A DNA stretch of 64,000 bases from NCBI RefSeq assembly GCF_947623445.1, contig NC_135242.1, forward strand, positions 24,738,001-24,802,000. Direction: 5' to 3'. The notes under the pieces are model-generated. The model had not been told where the DNA came from and did no database searches. It saw only the letters and a list, made by a program, of their open reading frames with translations. Positions within the stretch are counted from its first letter, which is position 1, and the number at the start of each line of letters is the position of its first letter. This DNA comes from Clavelina lepadiformis (lineage: Eukaryota; Chordata; Ascidiacea; Aplousobranchia; Clavelinidae). A program made the position numbers and the translations under genes. Of this stretch, positions 9,184 through 58,701 are shown piece after piece.

Positions 9184-11269
9184 TCAGTCGCAACGAAGTT
9201 TCATTTTACTTTCTTTAAGAGGTTCACGATATCCCTTCCAATGATACCAAATAATTCCATGAGAATATCCACTTGATTGACGCATCCAGACTCCATTGAG
9301 GAATGAAAAGCCGCAGCCACCAAACCACCATCCCTGAGATCCTCCATTGTAAGTTGCGCAGTTTGCATCACTAATATATTAAAATATGAAAGATTAAAAT
9401 TACTTTGTTGCATCTATTTATATTCTATCTTATACGTTACTGGCAGGATATAACTGAAAATCCTACTGAGGTTGTGGCACTTAATGTTTATTAAGTTGAA
9501 CATGTTTGTTCCTGAACATTAGATGACGTACATGGAATCGCTATCTTCTGTCGAGAATGGGCGACCATTGTGATATGATAAACTGTCCCCTGCATTTCCG
9601 CTCTATCCGGAAACACGAAGTCGATATAAATTGTCAGCAGATCCGATCGAAAACGAGCTGCAAAAACAACAAATTGCTTTAAAAGGTTCGAATCCAGACA
9701 ACTAAGTTGTAATTTAATCATCATAGTTTTACGTTGATTAATAAATGTAAGATTTTTAACATCTTCGTTATTTATGTCACAACAATCGTTTTATGACCTA
9801 TAATCGGCGTGACGTTGGTTTCCATCGAAATCCCACAGTTCTATCTTGAGTCTGCATCCTCCTCCACGCGTCATCTCGTGGATGTTGTCGAGTCCTGTAA
9901 GTAATGAAGCACGAATAATAAGAACAAAAACTATCAAAATAAAATGCGTTTAAGTTGAACAAAACTTCCTCTTACCAAGCCAAAATTCCCCATCAATCTG
10001 GCCAAAACCGTTCGCGTAGTCGTCCCATTGTCGCCCGAAATTAACACTTCCGTCAATTCTTCGTTGAAAAATTTGTTGGTAATTTGATTTTACATTTTAG
10101 CACAAGTGTAATACGTTTAATTTATATGTTTAAATAATCTTCAGTTTATTACGTCATAATACAAGAAGTACGGCAATATTTACACCTCGCTTACAATACG
10201 CAAGATATATCTCTTTAAGTTATCTCTTATTCCAGTGGCATGTTCATATTTTTGCTAAAAATTTCAAGTTATGAAAAGTTCAAACTCATATTATAAGCAG
10301 CTGTTTGCTGCAGGTGATTTGGATGAAATAAATCAGGTTTACGTGGCGCTGGTTGAATTTCGCCCGTTTTCACTGCAAGCGACTTATGCAGTTCAATGCA
10401 ATTGTTTCGCATGTTGCATAAACGAAGCGAATTAGGCACAACAATAATGTTGGCATGCAACACGGCAATTATTAGCGTGCATTAATTTTTATGCATCGTA
10501 GCATGTGACTCAATGTGGGATTATGATCGTCTATACACAATCGCACACGACTAACACTCACACAGCAATCATTGTTCCATTGTTGCAGATACTTGAAAAG
10601 TGGAAAAGGCAGATTTGAAAAAGCGCGAATGCGTGTGAAAACAAATTTATTGTCTCTTGTATTTTCTTACATTCTTGCTACAATGCAAATGAATCGCACA
10701 CAACGCACTGTCACCTTAAAGTCCACACAACTTGCGTAATATTAAGTTTCATAGTTTGTGGAATTCCTCTTATGAACGTGGAAAGATTTTCACTCACTGT
10801 CCATCCATCCTCGCAATAAACTTCAACACCACTTGTCAGATTTCTGGGACCGTTGTTTAATGACGTAGCACATGACGTAATACTAGATGTTGTTGTCGTG
10901 GTAACATTGGTAGTAGCCATGGTCGTTTTACTGGGAGATGTAAGAAGCTCCTCGATTTCTGGAAAGAAATGTTGACAGGAAATAAAAATATTTGACATAC
11001 GTTTGCTTGTACTTGAACTTACTGGTCAGCCTGGTGACTACGTCGGTTCTTAGCGGTCCCAGGTTGCAACATGCGGTTTGGTTGTCATTCTCTTCATCTT
11101 CGTTCATTTCCCCGTCTTCAGGACCTGCGACGTCACTTTTGTCAAGATTTCGAGTCCAAGTGAACGTTGTGTCGTCATCACAGATTGTCTTCACAGATTG
11201 ACGGCATCGTTGCGAGTAGGTCATCGTGACGTAACACACCAAGAGCAACAAAAGAAAAACCCCTTTCAT
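9184..11269 (-). pseudogene. Ficolin-like fibrinogen-domain gene, copy A (broken)
   Basis: Six-exon gene of the array, high to low: 11023-11269, 10798-10958, 9976-10072, 9798-9894, 9532-9657, 9184-9370. Exon 1 encodes a signal peptide (MKGVFLLLLLVCYVTMTYS) and a short Cys-containing segment, then an acidic stretch (GPEDGEMNEDEEND) where B and D have collagen. Exon 2 holds a Thr-rich linker and the start of the fibrinogen domain ([12 protein letters not shown]). Exons 3-6 complete the domain, with [34 protein letters not shown] and FLNGVWM. Two lesions are visible. The acceptor before exon 3 reads AA rather than AG, because + position 10073 is t where B, C and D have c. A TAG at 9603-9605 replaces the Tyr codon of SGYSGNAG. 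Exon 5 is also two codons shorter than in B. The next AGs after the lost acceptor would shift the frame. Probably a pseudogene, unless the 5' half alone is expressed. Confidence 0.85.
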
Positions 11270-25521: not shown

Positions 25522-28116
25522 TCAGTCGCAACGAAGTTTCATTTTACTTTCTTTAAGAGGTTCACGCAGTCCCTTCCAATCACCCCAAATAATTCCATGC
25601 TGATATCCACTTGATTGACGCATCCAGACTCCATTGAGGAATGAATAGCCGCAGCTACGGAACCACCATCCCTGAGATCCTCCACGGTTAGTTGCGCAGT
25701 TTACACGTCTAATATATTAAAATATGAAAGATTAAAATCACTTTGTTGCATCTATTTATATTCTATCTTATACGTTACTGGCAGGATATAACTGAAAATC
25801 CTACTGAGGTTGTGGCACTTAATGTTTATTGAGTTGAACATATTTGTTCCTGAACATAAGATGACGTACTGGGAATCGTTGTTGCTATCTTCTGTCGAGA
25901 ATGGACGACCATTGTGATATGATAAACTGTCCCCTGCATTTCCGCTGTATCCGGAAACACGAAGTCGATATAAATTTTCAGCGGATTCGATCGAAAACGA
26001 GCTGCAAAAACAACAACTTGCTTTAAAAGATTCGGATCCAGACAACTAAGTTGTAATTTACTCAACAAAGTTTTACGTTGATTAATAAATGTAAGATTTT
26101 TAACATCTTCGTTATTTATGTCACAACAATCGTCTTATGACCTATAATCTGCGTGACGTTGGTTTCCATCGAAATCCCACAGCTCTATCTTGAGTCTGCA
26201 TCCTCCTCCACGCGTCATCTTGTGGATGTTGTCGAGTCCTGTAAGTAATGAAGCACGAATAATAAGAACGAAAAACATCAAAATAAAATGCGTTTAAGTT
26301 GAACTAACTTCTTCTTACCAAGCCAAAATTCTCCATCAATCTGGCCAAAACCGTTCGCGTAGTCGTCCCATCGTCGCCCGAAACTAACACTTCCGTCAAT
26401 TCTTCTTTGAAAAATCTGTTAGTAATTTGATTTTACATTTTAGCACAAGTGTAATACGTTTAATTTATACGTTTAAATAATCTTCAGTTTATTACGTCAT
26501 AATACAAGAAGTACGGCAATATTTACGCTTCGCTTACAATACGCAAGATATATCTTGTCAAGTTGGATCTCTTATTGCAGTGGCATGTTCATATGTTTGC
26601 TAAAAATTTGAAGTTAAGAAAAGTATAAACTCATATTATAGGTAGCTGTTTGCTGCAGGTGATTTGGGTGAAATAAATCAGGTTTACGTGGCGCTGGTTG
26701 AATTTCGCCCGTTTTCACTGCAAGCGACTTATGCAGATCAATGCAATTGTATCGCATGCTGCATAAACGAAGCGAATTAGACGCAACAGTAATGTTGGCA
26801 TGCAACACAGTAATTACTAGCGTACAGTGATTTTTATGCATCGTGGCATGTGACTCAATGTGGGCTTATGATCGTCTATACACAACCGCACACGACTAAC
26901 ACTCCCACAGCAACCATTGTTCCATTGTTGCGGATAGTTGCATTAAACTTACAAATACACGGTTATATTAAACAGTTTTCAACCCAATTGTTTGAGTTTG
27001 TCGGTAAGCGTTTTCGAATCAACCTCAAGTTGGCAAACAACCTTCATTCAACGTTTTGGGAATTAAGTTTCAGAAAAGTGGAAAAAGCACATTTAAAAAA
27101 GCGCGAATGCGTGTGGAAACAAATTCATTGTCGTTTGTGTTTTCTTACTTTCTTGCTACAATGCAAATGAATAGTACACAACGCATTGCCGCCTTGAAAT
27201 CCACACAACTTGATAACTATAGCTTCAATACTACACAGTAAGTGTTTACTTTTATGTATACGGTTATACCTTTCAATACTACTGTAAGTTCAATATAATT
27301 TGTAATCTAATCCACTTTGGAAAATCTTTCACTCACCGTCCATCCATCCTCGCAGTAAACTTCAACACCACTCGTCAAAGTGTGGGCACCGTTGCTTGAT
27401 GACGGAGAACATGACGTAATACTAGATGTTGTTGTCGTGGTAACAGTGCTGGTTGCAGTAGATGGCGTTGTCGTGGCAACTGTGGTAGTAGCCATGGTCG
27501 TGGTACTGGGAGGTGTAAGAAGCTCCTCGATTTCTGGAAACAATTTTTTGTTGTAAACAAGATTGAACTTTTCCAGCAAGGTTCCAGGCAATACTTGCTC
27601 GTAATTAGCAATAAACATACAATTAAACAAGACAACAAGCATAGACCATAGCGTATGAGATCTGTATAAGTGGTTGCGCGTAGATTGTAAAGTTTCTGTA
27701 GTTTACATCTTTTGGTTTGCCAGATGCTTTTAAAATAAAAAAGTCATCAATTTTACTACGAAGTTTGTTATGCTCTCAGGAGAAATGACGATGATTAAAG
27801 TAATTAGTCTATGATCTGAAATCAACTTACTTGCCAGTCTGGTGACTATGTCGGTCCCTAGCGACCCCAAAGCGCACGATTCTCCTTGTATCCCCTTCTG
27901 ACCAACTCCTCCGGGTTCTCCTTTGGCTCCTGGATCCCCCTGAGCTCCGGGAATTCCGGATTTTCCGGGTCTACCAATATCACCTTTGTCTCCTTTCTGC
28001 ATGCTTGAATTGACGACGTCATCATCACAGACAGTGGTAAGGACTTGACGACATTGTTGCGAGTAGGTCATGATGACGAAACAAGCCAAGGATAACAGAA
28101 GAGTCACTCCTCTCAT
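25522..28116 (-). CDS. Ficolin-like secreted lectin, collagen type, copy B (intact)
   Basis: Predicted 331-residue secreted recognition lectin. Exons, high to low: 27831-28116, 27337-27533, 26319-26415, 26142-26238, 25870-26001, 25522-25708; all introns are GT-AG with matching phases. Domains: signal peptide 1-19 ([19 protein letters not shown]); Cys22 and Cys30, which could link chains; collagen-like 42-80, 13 unbroken Gly-X-Y triplets; Thr/Ser-rich linker about 102-135, a likely O-glycosylation site; fibrinogen C-terminal domain about 137-331. Cysteines fit the usual pairs Cys137/Cys156 and Cys274/Cys289, with extra ones in GGGCRLKIE and at the C-terminus (KLRCD). The acidic [10 protein letters not shown] loop matches the calcium site of the family. 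Residues 284-289 (WWFRSC) border the ligand pocket known from tachylectin-5A and ficolins. Collagen plus fibrinogen domain is the ficolin architecture; ficolins bind acetylated sugars and trigger the complement lectin pathway. Ligand and role here are unknown. Confidence 0.9.
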
Positions 28117-28178
28117 GGTTGACTATGAAGATCTTCCGTTGAAGTTGATCATATGAAATCCTACCAAATCGCTGCTCG

Positions 28179-28185
28179 TTATATA
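28179..28185 (-). promoter_or_regulatory. TATA box of lectin gene B
   Basis: TATATAA on the minus strand lies about 63 bases upstream of the ATG. The same box is at the same distance in copy D. Confidence 0.55.
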
Positions 28186-28204
28186 GCCAACTTCGCTTGT
28201 ACAT

Positions 28205-28212
28205 TGACGTCA
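28205..28212. promoter_or_regulatory. CRE-like palindrome upstream of lectin gene B
   Basis: TGACGTCA, the full CREB/ATF-type site, lies about 20 bases upstream of the TATA box. Copy D has only TGACGTAA at a similar place (58801-58808). Such words are frequent in this DNA, so function is uncertain. Confidence 0.3.
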
Positions 28213-28299
28213 TATAGGCTTGGAAATATGATACCAAATCTTCAAAATGTTTTCTACGAAATATCGAAATTCCTTTCTTGACGAAAAACATGTTTTGAA

Positions 28300-32782: not shown

Positions 32783-35086
32783 TTATACAGAATGAATGAC
32801 TTCACACGCAACAAATTTGCTTTTAAAAGGCAATAAAATGCATTTCTTGATTGAAGAAGTAACCTTGATAGCCTCATAGCGCTTACTAATTTCGCTTACC
32901 TCATATATTCCAACTAATTTCGAAGAAACAGGATTCGTAAAAAAAGCATTCGTATTTTTGTACCTTTTAACAATAAAGTACATCCCACCCTCACATTGTA
33001 TAATATTGAAAACTCTGTAAACGGTAGAAGAGATACTAATTATGGAATCAGCAATGGAATTACGCTTTATAGAGCAGTTGCTATGGGGTAGTTGAACATT
33101 ACAAAAATGCAACAGACATGACCTTTCAAACTGAGGAGTAATTACACCTGTTTCTACACATGGAGTTAATTCACAAGTAATGTTGCTACGTAAGCATTTT
33201 GATGTAAACAAACAATTTTCATTATCATGAAAAGCATGTTTTGCAACTTGTTGCGGTGGTTTGAAACCAGATCTTACACAGTTTTTAAGCACTCCTAAAT
33301 AACTTTCAAATGGAAAACTATTCACATTTTCAAGAGACCCATACAACACATAATCATCAACGAGGTGTAGCAAACTATGAACATTATAAGATACAAAACT
33401 TTTCCCATATAACGTTGCAGATTCGCTTACAAATTCACGCAAAAGATTTGAACAAACTTGCAAGTGTTGAGGACTAGTGTTTTGATATAACAGAAAACGC
33501 ATCGCAACAGTCAACTTTAAAAAGTGAAAGTATCTTGATTGCGATAAAACGTTCTCATCATGTAGCATAACACAACCCACGTATAACATAAACAACCTAT
33601 ATTCCGAAGCTTTCCAATATGGCAAATCAGAAACAGGTCGCAATTTCCTATTAAACTCCATAGCAATGAAAGGCTTCATCTGAACCACTTTCATGCTAAT
33701 TCTTGCAATAGCATCAGAAGAAAGTTTAGCTTTACGTTGTCTGCAAATTAATTAATGCAAACGATTATTTACTGATTTTAAAGTTTCTCAAGTATTATCT
33801 GTAAATAAATTTAAACCAAAAATTTATAGCTTAGGCCTATACAGTACTCACAATAACATGCAGCTTGTTTACCTTCGCACACCTTTCCACCAAGTCATAA
33901 GCCTCTTTGTGACACCAAGGCAGGAGAGGTGCATATAATCCAGCACAAAATGCGAAACCATATCTACTCCAAAATCAGTTAATGCTGAATGCCCTTTGTG
34001 ATGTTCTGGATCACTTTGCAGCACAAAATCAACATCACTTCGTCGTATACAATTAGTATTTACAAAACAAACCCGGCCTTCAATGTATTCTCCATGGACA
34101 GTGCATCGTTCACAGCTATTATAGCCAGTGTGAGATTTTCTAGCTTTCAACGATGATCTTGCTGGTGCATCACAGACAAATATACCACGATTGGCTAAAT
34201 GATAAGACAATCCTTTGGTAGTTACTGGGGTGTTTTCAAGGAACCTTAAGTCATCCATCAAAGCTTTTAAAAATACATCTGCCGAAGGCATTTCACGATT
34301 AGGTGATTGCTCGGAACAATAAATGCCTGCACACAAGGGTCTCATTGGTACTTTATGAAGAGAAATTAAAATAGGATACAACTTGTAATTCGGAGAAGAT
34401 TTAAATAATGGTAAACCATCAATATTTATAATGAGATGATAAACTGTTTGATGGTTGACATTTGAAGACAAGATATCTTGAAGACCCTTTTTCCAGTTAG
34501 AAAGATGCACATAGCTTCGTCCAGCCATTGTTTCATATTGCAACCGTGGTGGTGGTAATAAAGTTTTATATGAGCACGGTAAACTATTATTTACAGTGCG
34601 TAACTGGTGAAGAAGCCTGGTGACTGCAGCATTTGGCACATTTTTCTCCAATATTACCCAATTAATAATTGCTTGACGCATAGTTACATTTTCGGAAATC
34701 TGCGCTAAAGGAGAGTCAACTTTTTCATTTGGGTGAAAGCTTGTAGTTTCAATGAAATCACAACCTTCGTTACTAGTGTCAGTTGAAATTGAGCTACAGC
34801 TAGCAGACTCGTCACTTGAAGAGGTTAAGTCATTTACGCTGCTATCTGCAGAAGTTGAAACACAACTGACAGACTCATCACATGAAGAACTCGTTTCATT
34901 CTCAACAAAATTAGGAATGCAACCGACAGATTTATTACTTAAAGATGAAGACATGCTATTTTCTAGATTTGGTTCATTTTGACATTGTTTATCTTTTTCG
35001 CAAATCTTTCGTCGTTTCCACTTTTGCTGTCTTGACAACTCTTCATAGCGTTTATAACATATTCGAGAAGATCGTTTCTTAGGCAT
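32783..35086 (-). CDS. tnp2-like transposase of the transposon
   Basis: Two exons, 33873-35086 and 32783-33740, joined in phase (AG|A), give 723 residues. Start chosen at MPKKRSS because the upstream in-frame stretch reads as leader. Order: basic N-terminus; low-complexity Ser/Asp-rich region; transposase region with NIDGLPLFKSS, CDAPAR, a likely zinc-binding GYNSCERC, HHKGHS and DYMHLSCLGVTKRL; a C-terminal DUF4218-like part with DLPYWKASEYRLFMLY, YNVHSLLHLVDDY and FPFESYLG. These motifs typify the Transposase_21 (tnp2) family of cut-and-paste elements in invertebrates. No stop or frameshift was seen. It may still be active, or supply enzyme to small relatives. Confidence 0.85.
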
Positions 35087-45890: not shown

Positions 45891-48578
45891 TCAGTCGCAA
45901 CGAAGTTTCATTTTAGTTTCTTTAAGAGGTTCATTAGTTCCCTTCCACTCCTGCCAAATAATTCCATGCCAACTTCCACTTGATTGACGCATCCAGACTC
46001 CATTGAGGAATGAATAGCCGCAGTTATTAAACCACCATCCCTGAGATCCTCCAAAGTCAGTTGCGCAGTTCCAAGAACTAATATATTAAAATATGAAAGA
46101 TTAAAATTACTTTGTTGCATCTATTTATATTCTATCTTATACGTTACTGGCAGGATATAACTGAAAATCCTACTGAGGTTGAGGCACTTAATGTATATTA
46201 AGTTGAACATACAGTCGGATCCGCTTAATTCGGACACTTTGGTTCCGCTCACTTTTGGCCGAATTAAGCGGAGAAACGGCTTTGTCCGAATTAAGCGGAA
46301 CATCAATTGTTCGTTTCATGGTCACGCGTAAAGGCAAAAAACGCATTTAAAATACTATAGTGTTGCGTAATAAATGAATTGCAGCTGCGCTATACTGCAG
46401 TAACTGGCACTGATCGCATAAAACGTCTTGGTTTACTTTAGTGAGCAATTTCAATTTTCGTGCTAAACTTTTCTGTACAATATTGTCCTACAAGACTATG
46501 AAGCTGGCACGGCGTTATATGAGTTCATTGTCGATTGTTACTGCATGGATCGTCATTGTTTCATCATAATCACTCATAATGCAACTGCATCTTGTGTTAA
46601 AACGAACAAAGTACTGTTTATTGTGTCATAACCTAACGATAGGAATTGCGAGCCTGTGTCCGAATTAAGCGGAGAATTGTCCGAATTAACAGGATTTTTT
46701 ACGTTCAATTTTTACTTTTGTTCCGTTCCTGAGCATTTTGGCCGAAAAAAGCGGTTGTCCGGGTTATCCGGTGTCCGAATTAAGCCGATTCGACTGTATT
46801 TGTTCCTGAACATAAGATGACGTACTCGGAATCGTTATCGCTATCTTCCGTCGAGAATGGGTGACCATTGCTATTTGTCAAACTGTCCTATGCATTTCCG
46901 CTGTATCCGGAAACACGAAGCCGATATAAATTTTCAGCAGATTCGATCGAAAACGAGCTGCAAAAACAACAACTTGCTTTAAAAGGTTCGAATCCAGACA
47001 ACTAAGTGGTAATTTACTCATCAAAGTTTTACGTTGATTAAAAAATGTAAGATTTTTTAAATCTTCCTTATTCATGTCACAACAATCGTCTTGTGACCTA
47101 TAATCGGCGTGACGTTGGTTTCCATGGAAATCCCACAGCTCTATCTTGAGTCTGCATCCCCCTCCACGCGTCATCTCGTGGATGTTGTCGAGTCCTGTAA
47201 GTAATGAAGCACGAATAATTAATAGAACAAAAAACATCAAAATAAAATGCGTTTAAGTTGAACTAACTTCCTCTTACCAAGCCAAAATTCCCCATCAATC
47301 TGACCAAAACCGTTCGCGTAGTCGTCCCATCGTCGCTCGAAACTAACACTTCCGTCAATTCTTCTTTGAAAAATCTGTTAGTAATTTGAGTTTACATTTT
47401 AGCACAAGTGTAATACGTTTAATTTATATGTTTAAATAACCTTCAATCAATTACGTCATAATACAAGAAGTACGGCAATATTTACACTTCGCTTACAATA
47501 CGCAAAATATATCTTGTTAAGTTGGATCTCTTATTCCAGTGGCATGTTCATATTTTTGCTAATAATTTCAAGTTAAGAGAAGTCTAAAGTCATATTATAG
47601 GTAGCTGTTTTCTGCATGTGATTTGGGTGAAATAAATCTGGTTTTCGTGGCGCTGGTTGACTTTCGCTCGTTTTCACTGCGAACGACTTACGCAGTTCAA
47701 TGCAATTGTTTCGCATGCTGCATAAACGAAGTGAGTTAGGCACAACAGTAATGTTGGCATGCAACACAGTAATTATTAGCGTACAGTGATTTTTATGCAT
47801 CGTAGCATGTGACTCAATGTAGGCTTATGATCGGCTCTGCACAACCGCACACGACTAACACTCCCACAGCAATCATTGTTCCACTGTTGCAGATACTTGA
47901 AAAGTGGAAAAAGCAGATTTAAAAAAGCGCGAATGTGTGTGAAAACAAATTTATTGTCTCTTGTATTTTCTTACATTCTTGCTACAATGCAAATGAATTG
48001 CACACAACGCAACGCACTGTCACCTTAAAGTCCACACAGCTTGCGTAATATTACGTTTCCTAGTTTGTGGAGTTCCTCTTATGAACGTGGAAAGATTTTC
48101 ACTCATCGTCCATCCATCCTCGCAATAAACTTCAACACCACTTGTCAGATTTCTGGTACCGTTGTTTAATGACATAGAACATGACGTAATACTAGATGTT
48201 GTTGTCGTGGTAACAGTGGTAGTAGCCATGGTCGTGGTACTGGGAGATGTAAGAAGCTCCTCGATTTCTGGAAAGAAATGTTGACAGGAAATAAAAATAT
48301 TTGACATACGTTTGCTTGTACTTGAACTTACTGGTCAGCCTCGTGACTATGTCGGTTCTAAGCGGTCCCAGGTTGCAACATGCGGTTTGGTTGTCATTCT
48401 CTTCATCTTCGTTCATTTCCCCATCTTCAGGACATGCGACGTCACTTTTGTCAAGATTTCGAGTCCAAGTGAACGTTGTGTCGTCATCACAGATTGTCAT
48501 CACAGATTGACGGCATCGTTGCGAGTAGGTCATCGTGACGTAATACACCAAGAGCAACAAAAGAAAAACCCCTTTCAT
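45891..48578 (-). pseudogene. Ficolin-like fibrinogen-domain gene, copy C (broken)
   Basis: Same six-exon plan: 48332-48578, 48107-48267, 47278-47374, 47098-47194, 46826-46957, 45891-46077. Exon 1 is almost identical to copy A (signal peptide, acidic stretch, no collagen). The fibrinogen part has its own binding-face residues ([22 protein letters not shown]). Lesions: the donor after exon 2 reads ATGAGT in place of GTGAGT (+ position 48106 is t where the others have c), and GGG of NAGDS is TAG at 46888-46890. A 585-bp element sits in intron 5 (46212-46796). Reading through the lost donor gives a short tail and a stop, leaving only the secreted linker. Lesions differ from those of copy A, so loss was independent. 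Confidence 0.85.
46212..46796. mobile_element. pogo/Tc1-like MITE in intron 5 of copy C
   Basis: Inverted ends CAGTCGGATCCGCTTAATT and the complement of AATTAAGCCGATTCGACTG, pairing over about 24 bases, flanked by TA on both sides (46210-46211 and 46797-46798). Absent from the same intron in A, B and D. The word gtccgaattaagcgg recurs inside near both ends. TA target and CAGT-type ends fit non-autonomous pogo/Tigger-like elements. Confidence 0.9.
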
Positions 48579-56206: not shown

Positions 56207-58701
56207 TCAGTCGCAACGAAGTTTCATTTTAGTTTCTTTAAGAGGTTCAGTAGTTCTCTTCCAATGATACCAAATAATTCCATGCCAACTTCCACTTGAT
56301 TGACGCATCCAGACTCCATTGAGGAATGAATGGGCGCAGTCACTAAACCACCATCCCTGAGATCCTCCATTGCTAGTTGCGCAGTCACCACTAATATATT
56401 AAAACATGAAAGATTAAAATTACTTTGTTGCATCTATTTATATTCTATCTTATACGTTACTGGCAGGATATAACTGAAAATCCTACTGAGGTTGTGGCAC
56501 TTAATGTTTATTGAGTTGAACATATTTGTTCCTGAACATAACATGACGTACTTCCAGGAATCGTTATCGTTATCTTCCGTCGAGAATGGGTAACCATTGC
56601 TAAGCGCTAAACTATCCCCGGCATTTCCGCTGTATCCGGAAACATGAAGCCGATATAAATTTTCAGCGGATTCGATCGAAAACGAGCTGCAAAAACAACA
56701 ACTTGCTTTAAAGGATTCGAATCCAGACAACTAAGTGGTAATTTACTCAACAAAGTTTTACGTTGATTAATAAATGTAAGATTTGTAACTTCTTTGTTAT
56801 TTATGTCACAACAATCGTCTTATGACCTATAATCGGCGTGAGCTTGGTTTCCAGCGAAGTCCCACAGCTCTATCTTGAGTCTGCATCCTCCTCTACGCGT
56901 CATCTCGTGGATGTTGTCGAGTCCTGTAAGTAATGAAGCACGAATAATAGAACAAAAAACATCAAAATAAAATGCGTTTAAGTTGAACAAACTTCCTCTT
57001 ACCAAGCCAAAATTCCCCATCAATCTGGCCAAAACCGTTCGCGTAGTCGTCCCATGGTCGACTAAAATTCACACTTCCGTCAATTCTTCTTTGAAAAATC
57101 TGTTAATAATTTGATTTTACATTTTAGCACAAGTGTAACATGTTTAATTTATATGTTTAAATAATCTTCAGTTTATTACGTCATAATACAAGAAGTACGG
57201 CAATATTTACACTTCGCTTACAATACGCAAGATATATCTTGATAAGTTAGATCACTTATTCCAGTGGCATGTTCATATTTTTGCTAAAAATTTCAAGTTA
57301 AGAAAATTTTAAACTCATATTATAGGTAGCTGTTTGCTGCAGGTGATTTGGGTGAAATAAATCAGTTTTACGTGACGCTGGTTGAATTTCGCCCGTTTTC
57401 ACTGCAAGCGACTTACGCAGTTCAATGCAATTGTTTCGCATGCTGCATAAACGAAGCGAATTAGACACAACAATAATGTTGGCATGCAACACAATAATAA
57501 TTATTAGCGTACAGTGATTTTTATGCATCGTGGCATGCGACCCAATGTGGGCTTATAATCGTCTCTGCACAACCGAACACGACTAACACTCCCACAGCAA
57601 TCATTGTTCTCACAAGTTGGCAAACAAACTTCATTCAACGTTTTAGAAATTTAATTTCAGAAAAGTGGAAAAAGACAAATTTAAAAAAGCGCGAATGCGT
57701 GTGGAAACAAATCCATTGTCGTTTGTGTTTTCTTACTTTCTTGCTATAATGCAAATAAATAGCACACAACGCATTACCGCCTTGAAGTCAACACAACTTA
57801 ATAACTATCGCTTCAATACTACACAGTAAGTGTATAAACTTCTATGTATACGTTTATACCTTTCAATACTACTGTAAGTTCAATATAATTTGTAAGCTAT
57901 TCCACTTATAACTGTGGTAAATCTTTCACTCACCGTCCATTCATCCTCGCAGTAAACTTCAACACCACTCGTCAAAGTGTGGGGACCGTTGCTTGATGAC
58001 GTAGTAGAACATGACGTAATACTAGATGTTGTTGTCGTGGTAACAGTGGTAGTAGCCATGGTCGTGGTACTGGGAGGTGTAAGGAGCTCCTCGATTTCTG
58101 GAAACAATATTTTGTTGTAGAGAAGATTGAACTTTTCCAGCAAAGTTCCAGTTAAAACTCGATCGTATTAAGCAATAAAAATACAACTAAACAAGACAAC
58201 AAGCATAGACCATAGCGTATGAGTTCTATATAAGTGGTTGCAAGTAGATTGTAATGTTTCTTTAGTTTACATTTTTTGGTTTGCCAGATGCTTAATAACA
58301 AAGTCGCAATAATAATTTAATCGATTAAGACATTAGTTTATTGCAGAGTTCTTTATGTTCGCATGAAAATTGACGATGATTAAAATAATTAGTCTATGAT
58401 CAGAAATCAACTTACTTGCCAGTCTGGTGACTATGTCGGTTCCTAACAACCCCAGATCGCACGATTCTCCTTGCATCCCCTTCTGTCCAACTCCTCCGGG
58501 TTCTCCTTTGGATCCTGGATGCCCCTGAGCTCCAGGAATTCCGGATTTTCCAGATCTGCCGACATCACCTTTGTCTCCTTTCTGCATGTTGGAATTGACG
58601 ACGTCATCATCACAAACAGTGGTAAGGACTTGACGACATTGTTGCGAGTAGGTCATCATGACGAAACAAGCCAATGAAAACAGAAGAATCACTCCTTTCA
58701 T
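56207..58701 (-). CDS. Ficolin-like secreted lectin, collagen type, copy D (intact)
   Basis: Predicted 320 residues. Exons, high to low: 58416-58701, 57934-58097, 57003-57099, 56827-56923, 56552-56686, 56207-56390; all splice sites GT-AG, phases match copy B. Signal peptide 1-19 ([19 protein letters not shown]), paired N-terminal Cys22/Cys30, 13 Gly-X-Y triplets (42-80), Thr-rich linker shorter than in B by 11 residues, fibrinogen domain to the C-terminus. Differences from B cluster on the binding face: [28 protein letters not shown], and an extra codon in the acidic loop ([13 protein letters not shown]). The usual domain start CEDGWT is CEDEWT. Likely a secreted pattern- or self-recognition lectin with specificity unlike B; ligand unknown. 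Confidence 0.9.

Follow-up and report, generated by a model that had tools for sequence, protein, structure and literature searches.

Ficolins join a collagen-like stem, which forms trimers, to a fibrinogen-like domain. At major histocompatibility complex (MHC) class I loci, ligand-site codons are more diverse than the introns, which are homogenized, and the diversity is allelic and confined to few loci. Among fibrinogen-domain proteins, the fibrinogen-related proteins (FREPs) of Biomphalaria form a diversified family for which point mutation and gene conversion have been invoked and somatic diversification has been reported (PMC12074976); they carry one or two immunoglobulin domains (PMC7588048). 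The closest analog that we found for a combination of paralog exchange with balancing selection is Arabidopsis RPP8, a protein of another class encoded at three loci (PMC6771003). We describe here a locus comparable to these systems, a large cluster of ficolin-like genes in the ascidian Clavelina lepadiformis, starting from four genes (A to D) in a window of 64,000 nucleotides (NCBI RefSeq assembly GCF_947623445.1, contig NC_135242.1, positions 24,738,001 to 24,802,000 of the forward strand; coordinates below are those of the window unless a contig is named). In these genes, very strong selection for amino-acid change has diversified about 20 codons, which coincide with or adjoin predicted ligand residues.

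Gene B lies on the minus strand (25522-28116) and comprises six exons with AG/GT junctions:

25522-25708, minus strand: exon 6, exactly the 187 bases given in an earlier note on this DNA; Cys pair, acetyl-pocket subdomain, C terminus and stop; AG acceptor; 16 of the 20 hypervariable codons
25709-25869, minus strand: intron 5, 161 bases, the low-divergence reference
25870-26001, minus strand: exon 5, containing hypervariable residues 253-255 and 258
26142-26238, minus strand: exon 4, conserved
26319-26415, minus strand: exon 3, conserved except for column 13
27337-27533, minus strand: exon 2, Thr-rich stalk and start of the fibrinogen-like domain
27831-28116, minus strand: exon 1, N-terminal leader (by eye) and collagen-like repeat; the covering open reading frame (ORF) matches PF01391 (E 3.9e-07)

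The product of 331 amino acids, in the order leader (by eye), collagen repeat, Thr-rich stalk and fibrinogen-like domain, is identical to the C. lepadiformis protein P0001, which its source names microfibril-associated glycoprotein 4-like. The precomputed domains of P0001 are collagen (PF01391) and fibrinogen (PF00147) only; PF01391 scores above its cut-off in the exon-1 ORFs of genes B and D and is carried by some of the listed relatives, not all. The fibrinogen-like domain of gene B matches the ficolin-1, -2 and -3 chains. Like ficolins, the Clavelina genes have a collagen-like stem, a fibrinogen-like domain, flanking motifs and the Cys pair (columns 115 and 131, the same in all 42 aligned genes). 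By its predicted architecture, the gene B product is a ficolin in spite of its database name; acetyl binding is no part of this claim. FREPs differ in that no immunoglobulin superfamily domain is found among those of P0001, the Clavelina copies are germline genes, and their variation lies at the pocket of the fibrinogen domain itself.

A search of the 209-Mb genome (95 contigs) with the exon-6 peptide of gene B gave 108 matches. By manual count, 60 of these, together with one 23-residue fragment, lie within about 3.2 Mb of the window's contig (C3, 21.96-25.12 Mb), 49 of the 60 at 70% identity or more, and genes A-D are members of this cluster. The earlier note had described the pattern for these four genes: the pattern is real, but a whole gene cluster is involved, and A and C are probably pseudogenes. 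The cluster also marks a difference from RPP8 and from MHC class I, with 60 exon-6 matches near linkage equilibrium and diversity spread across many paralogs. We obtained 51 of the 60 matches (50 loci, labeled L0xx, and gene B from the window); L050 and L058, which gave no BLAST match to exon 3, were left out, leaving 49 copies. The codon alignment used below comprises 42 genes; it omits L022 and L032 (frameshift), the near-identical duplicates L036, L041 and L055, and also L034 and L053, although their exon-6 frames are open (the G of the acceptor AG was assigned to exon 6).

Some 20 codons, of which exon 6 contains 16, are represented across the 42 genes by 4 to 15 amino acids each and are separated by invariant blocks. 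Column 111 holds 15 amino acids, column 135 holds 13, and columns 113, 118, 149, 150, 157 and 162 hold 12 each, interspersed with columns that show one amino acid in all genes. Several of these sites can be placed with respect to FIBCD1, whose acetyl group is held by Tyr405, His415, Tyr431 and Trp443, with Ala432 at the base, and by the backbone NH of Cys414 and His415, with a cis-peptide at Asn413-Cys414; Lys381 is the counterpart of the ligand-binding Arg186 of tachylectin-5A (TL5A) (PMC3908420), and neighboring pockets are formed by His382, Asn413, Arg412 and His396 (PMC10825690). The hypervariable sites of gene B are as follows:

25914-25922, minus strand: residues 253-255; 254 and 255 align with FIBCD1 Lys381 and His382
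25702-25708, minus strand: residues 270-272; 271 aligns with FIBCD1 Glu398, and codon 270 spans the exon 5/6 junction
25684-25689, minus strand: residues 277-278; 278 corresponds to FIBCD1 Tyr405, pocket
25654-25659, minus strand: residues 287-288; FIBCD1 Arg412 and Asn413 of the cis-peptide
25645-25650, minus strand: residues 290-291; 290 corresponds to FIBCD1 His415, pocket
25639-25641, minus strand: residue 293
25600-25605, minus strand: residues 305-306; FIBCD1 Tyr431 (one-residue gap moved) and Ala432, pocket base
25579-25584, minus strand: residues 312-313
25564-25569, minus strand: residues 317-318; 317 corresponds to FIBCD1 Trp443, pocket

Residue 258 in exon 5 is likewise hypervariable in the 42-gene alignment. 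The clusters of change listed earlier for gene B (270-273, 277-278, 287-288, 290-291, 305-306, 312-313 and 316-318) agree with these apart from residues 273 and 316, each of which extends one cluster by a single residue and is nearly fixed; the list matches the alignment columns but lacked residue 293 and, in exon 5, 253-255 and 258. The strings formed by the 20 sites differ among all 42 genes. Cys and stops are absent from them, and Tyr, Gly, His, Arg, Ser and Ala abound.

When the FIBCD1 domain is aligned to the 42 proteins, 11 of 12 listed ligand residues reach a column, and 8 of these 11 fall among the 20 most variable columns (p 1.4e-6, or 3.7e-4 if limited to the 77 C-terminal columns). 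The placement of the variable sites at the acetyl pocket, proposed in the earlier note, is thereby supported. Outside the top 20 are His382 (rank 22), His396 (rank 38, beside a length-variable site) and Cys414 (invariant, structural); Tyr431 stands beside a one-residue gap and, once this gap is moved, falls on variable column 149, where the amphioxus protein P0103 has Tyr. In FIBCD1, TL5A and ficolins, all with acetyl-binding fibrinogen-like domains, the S1 ligand residues align with the Clavelina variable sites. FIBCD1, TL5A and L- and M-ficolin are reported to conserve their pocket residues except Trp443 (PMC3908420), whereas the Clavelina pocket columns, in a large tandem cluster, are among the most variable, with 38 distinct five-residue combinations among the 42 genes. 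Since none of the 42 genes retains the pocket His and an aromatic residue at 119, a small one at 150 and an aromatic one at 161 occur together in only 6 of 42, most copies would not be expected to bind acetyl groups in the usual way.

The earlier note rested on a comparison of exon 6 with intron 5. Between genes A and B these differ at 20 of 187 and 4 of 161 positions (Fisher p 0.003), which is what had been counted by hand (about 20 in 187 and about 4 in about 155), and C and D repeat the pattern, as claimed, with 17 of 184 and 6 of 161 (p 0.051). Codon counting in A-B exon 6 gives 16.8 nonsynonymous and 2.2 synonymous differences, in keeping with changes that nearly all alter the protein. 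Because A and C carry an in-frame TAG, each comparison sets a broken gene against an open one. Among 41 genes compared pairwise, with region limits a few bases off the splice sites, exon 6 is more divergent than intron 5 in 782 of 820 pairs; mean divergence is 0.149 in exon 6, 0.087 in intron 5, 0.085 in exon 5, 0.090 in intron 4, 0.050 in exon 4, 0.051 in intron 3, 0.067 in exon 3 and 0.173 in the 3' flank. The region spanning exon 3 through intron 5 has the appearance of a homogenized core, and intron 5 is a homogenized baseline, not a clean neutral clock. Since the 3' flank diverges as much as exon 6, an excess of exon over intron is by itself weaker evidence, and no proof, of selection. 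Diversifying selection, the conclusion drawn from it in the earlier note, is supported by the site models described below (omega 8-16).

Conversion that made the introns alike could in principle make the exons look fast, and the flank, close to exon 6 with introns 3-5 lower, fits such an artefact. To produce the observed pattern, however, it must skip codons only a few bases apart: conserved codons between the variable ones are as similar as the introns. In the pair L014/L024, the introns differ at 8 of 356 positions, yet 16 of 18 variable columns differ (two of the 18 being length-variable), and exon 6 shows 29 base differences at the 18 variable columns against 2 elsewhere. Amino-acid change is moreover favored over silent change, and the proportion of nonsynonymous differences (pN) at the variable codons, 0.60, is far above the flank. 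We regard homogenization of introns as an extremely unlikely explanation. A scan of 39 genes, made with no choice of sites, shows where 3-base windows exceed a diversity of 0.8. Exon 6 has 29 such windows among 181 and the 3' flank 2 among 134; none occurs among the 354 windows of introns 3-5, the 217 at the 3' end of intron 2 or the 313 of exons 3-5. Intron divergence failed as a clock for the variable codons, which are near saturation at every intron distance. In another pair, L054/L056, the introns differ at 18 of 361 positions and few variable columns differ.

Exon 6 shows a ratio of nonsynonymous to synonymous proportions (pN/pS) above 1 in 6 of 6 pairs of genes A-D (1.7 to 8.7). With pairs pooled, the corresponding rate ratio (dN/dS) over all pairs is 0.30 in exon 3, 0.61 in exon 4 and 0.49 in exon 5. 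In exon 6 it is 1.05 over all 861 pairs or 0.98 over the 630 pairs of the 36 genes retained as intact, and the codon-bootstrap pN/pS is 0.67-1.38. Splitting exon 6 resolves this average: 15 hypervariable codons, picked post hoc, have a dN/dS of 3.2-3.4 and the 49 others 0.28-0.29. Site models, which involve no picked sites, were run on 36 of the 42 genes and 170 codons, leaving out L010, L016, L017 and L047 (internal or lost stop), L044 (AT at the exon-3 acceptor) and L021, whose odd acceptor is really an extraction shift (its product is P0032). Comparing M2a with M1a, the selected class has an omega of 8.0 and 10.7% of codons on the exon tree (twice the log-likelihood difference 624), and an omega of 16.1 and 11.6% of codons on a tree of introns 3-5 (1013). 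Codons with a posterior above 0.95 number 16 and 19, respectively, and 18 of the 20 hypervariable columns reach this level in at least one tree. The dN/dS check that had been suggested thus has a divided outcome, a mean of about 1 over exon 6 on one side, the selected class and the six A-D pairs on the other.

Might constraint simply have been relaxed in redundant or decaying copies? Broken members do occur: besides A and C, L017 has a stop in exon 4, L022 and L032 have a frameshift and an exon 6 stop, L047 lacks a stop codon and the exon-3 acceptor of L044 reads AT. The neutral level would then be that of introns 3-5 (0.05-0.09) or of the flank (0.17), not a pN of 0.60; the other exon 6 codons are under constraint, as their dN/dS indicates, and neither Cys nor stops appear at the variable sites. 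The probability of this explanation is close to negligible.

A directed mutator at these codons (similar to a diversity-generating retroelement, deaminase-driven or of a related kind), with selection clearing the failures, appears to us very unlikely. Codon positions 1 and 2 are near saturation and the third base is the commonest of its site in 80% of cases (671 of 839), a superficially NNY-like pattern (N, any base; Y, pyrimidine); the variable sites are weakly linked even between neighbors, and synonymous differences counted along pathways (pS) are raised. Purines nevertheless occupy 96 of 713 third-base cells, and third-base changes are mainly to purines, contrary to NNY-only change: the ratio of third-base purines to minor pyrimidines is 96:32 at hypervariable and 54:126 at conserved codons. 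Close duplicates and probable alleles also keep most sites. Because pathway counting shares steps between classes at saturated codons, we made a tree-free check on silent T/C third bases. At 17 hypervariable codons their heterozygosity is 0.094; within the same stretch, 31 conserved codons have 0.075 (p 0.26), and exons 3-5 have 0.061 (p 0.10). A whole-codon mutator should clearly raise this silent class; since it is not significantly raised, selection on amino acids is favored over a local mutator. Relaxed constraint and intron homogenization are thus each rejected as sole cause, from the pN level and the conserved interleaved codons, and a local mutator is, on the silent T/C variation, very unlikely to be the sole cause.

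Several observations weigh against diversifying selection at a ligand site, or limit its reach. The mean dN/dS of exon 6 neither exceeds nor lies clearly below 1, and the 3' flank matches exon 6 in divergence (0.173 against 0.149). Columns 94 and 95 of exon 5 do not rise above a posterior of 0.95 in the site models, whereas column 13 of exon 3, distant from the pocket list, does so in the intron tree; since recombination violates the assumption of one tree, the values of these models are to be read as magnitudes, not as exact tests. Silent variation is somewhat higher at hypervariable codons, though not significantly, and pathway-counted pS is 0.28-0.30 there against 0.11-0.13 at other exon 6 codons, an increase that we attribute to the sharing of steps at saturated codons. 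The recent duplicates L027, L036 and L041, with exon 6 sequences 2-6 bases apart, show no amino-acid change at variable sites. As to the pocket, roughly one variable site in two falls outside the listed contacts, as a sequence neighbor of ligand residues placed by alignment, and the absence of the pocket His suggests that ancestral acetyl binding may be lost.

The copies have a common framework, from which the variable codons are largely decoupled. Linkage between 46 two-state sites, scored in 45 genes, falls from an r2 of 0.162 within 10 bases to 0.038 at 11-25 bases and 0.026-0.041 beyond (permutation p 0.0005), and all four combinations are seen in 77% of site pairs 11-25 bases apart. Since variants are nearly independent beyond about 10 bases, exchange among copies appears to be frequent; we infer ectopic gene conversion and crossing over. 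Intron distance has a weak rank correlation of 0.15 with the difference at variable sites and increases with physical distance (0.30). Shuffling of two-codon cassettes was also considered and finds scant support: mean linkage z is 1.24 for neighboring codons and 0.3-1.2 farther apart, with exceptions at columns 149-150 (z 2.9) and 134-137 (z 5.0). Genes A and C appear as mosaic genes with a junction in intron 2. Their 5' parts (B-equivalent 26990-28224) are 0.035 apart and about 30% from B and D. In the 3' parts the distance to B and D is 0.064-0.093, that of A being nearer B (0.064) than C (0.082).

Taken as a whole, the cluster is likely to be a germline set of ficolin-like lectin genes that supplies a secreted repertoire and is under extreme diversifying selection at ligand-site codons, its function being deduced from sequence. 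Each gene keeps a nearly fixed frame of collagen, stalk and fibrinogen domain; frequent exchange would keep introns and framework alike and decouple both from the variable codons. With some 20 codons at or beside predicted ligand residues differing and decoupled from the framework, the copies may bind different ligands, and the animal may secrete a repertoire of multimeric lectins. New specificities would probably arise from point mutation and short exchange and, rare ones being favored, would probably be kept. The lectins would most likely serve to recognize non-self ligands, such as glycans on microbial surfaces, given the collagen stem and the action of ascidian ficolins in the lectin pathway of complement (PMC5465252). 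We may go further and imagine an antibody-like germline repertoire, in which dozens of secreted multimeric lectins share one frozen scaffold, the 20 or so contact positions being freely recombined and selected and the set being largely private to each individual; we advance this fuller picture tentatively, at slightly less than an even chance.

Variation between individuals bears on this picture. Seventeen subfamily-like proteins from other Clavelina contigs, taken as a second assembly, were compared with the 42 genes. For three of the proteins, one of these genes is a probable allele, with differences at 2-4 of the 20 variable residues and at 2-6 of the 150 others (in sum, 9 of 60 and 11 of 450). 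The 14 others are without counterpart: 11-14 of the 20 variable sites differ, against 3-14 of 144-150 other residues. This fraction without counterpart is biased upward, because the database was clustered at 90% identity and nine array matches were not included. P0123, outside the 17, carries the exon-6 string of L030.

So many proteins without counterpart would also suit the main rival explanation, according to which the products are allorecognition or gamete-recognition labels, their diversity being driven by self/non-self discrimination within the species and not by microbes. Ascidians offer a precedent in v-Themis of Ciona, a fibrinogen-like protein with hypervariable regions (PMC7018956), and Botryllus ficolin genes are upregulated in allorejection (PMC5465252). 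The v-Themis genes, however, are few and nested in sperm-receptor genes, inside intron 1 of s-Themis (PMC7018956), and Clavelina has a large array with collagen stems. We consider such labels unlikely and retain the recognition of microbial or other non-self ligands as the preferred use.

Among the open-access papers listed in our searches (titles and beginnings of abstracts, with subscription papers outside the scope), we found none that describes the array or hypervariable ficolin pockets in tunicates. The available part of the Clavelina genome report (PMC10884593) does not mention fibrinogen, nor does that of a lancelet pangenome paper using Clavelina proteins mention ficolin or fibrinogen. 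Tunicates are the sister group of vertebrates and are not known to possess rearranging antigen receptors. If the preferred reading is right, the cluster would be an innate lectin system with a very strong diversifying signal concentrated at particular sites and with a scaffold kept common through gene exchange. It would also provide a testable system for the origin and upkeep of innate recognition repertoires, in which predicted contacts are named, each animal carries dozens of natural variants and specificity is readable on glycan arrays.

The other three genes of the window were located by the exon-6 peptide search, and two of them are interrupted:

9187-9366, minus strand: gene A exon 6, matched part
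9603-9605, minus strand: in-frame TAG in gene A exon 5
45894-46070, minus strand: gene C exon 6, matched part
46212-46797, minus strand: insertion of 586 bases in gene C intron 5, with terminal inverted repeats of about 26 bases
46888-46890, minus strand: in-frame TAG in gene C exon 5
56210-56386, minus strand: gene D exon 6, matched part; frame open

Gene A also has AA where its exon-3 acceptor should read AG. Both A and C are probably pseudogenes. The published assembly (210.1 Mb, 9 chromosomes) derives from one Plymouth animal at 117-fold HiFi coverage (PMC10884593), a depth that makes sequencing errors an unlikely source of the stop codons in array genes. The insertion in gene C, present in none of the other copies among the 51 obtained, looks like a small DNA transposon. 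Elsewhere in the window, an open frame of 303 amino acids (32783-33694) has a weak, below-cut-off match to DUF4218, which we take to be a domain of transposon proteins.

Two further observations concern the wider family. Six matches at C3:23771915-23811701, L057 among them, have near-identical scores, are spaced 7-9 kb apart and are more distant from gene B; they probably represent a recent local amplification. In a style similar to that of the cluster, a second, single-exon family of fibrinogen-domain genes (L001-L008, on C5, C9 and C3) combines a near-invariant N-terminal stretch with variable patches (eight genes, by eye), which include residues beside the second Cys and the WxxW motif.

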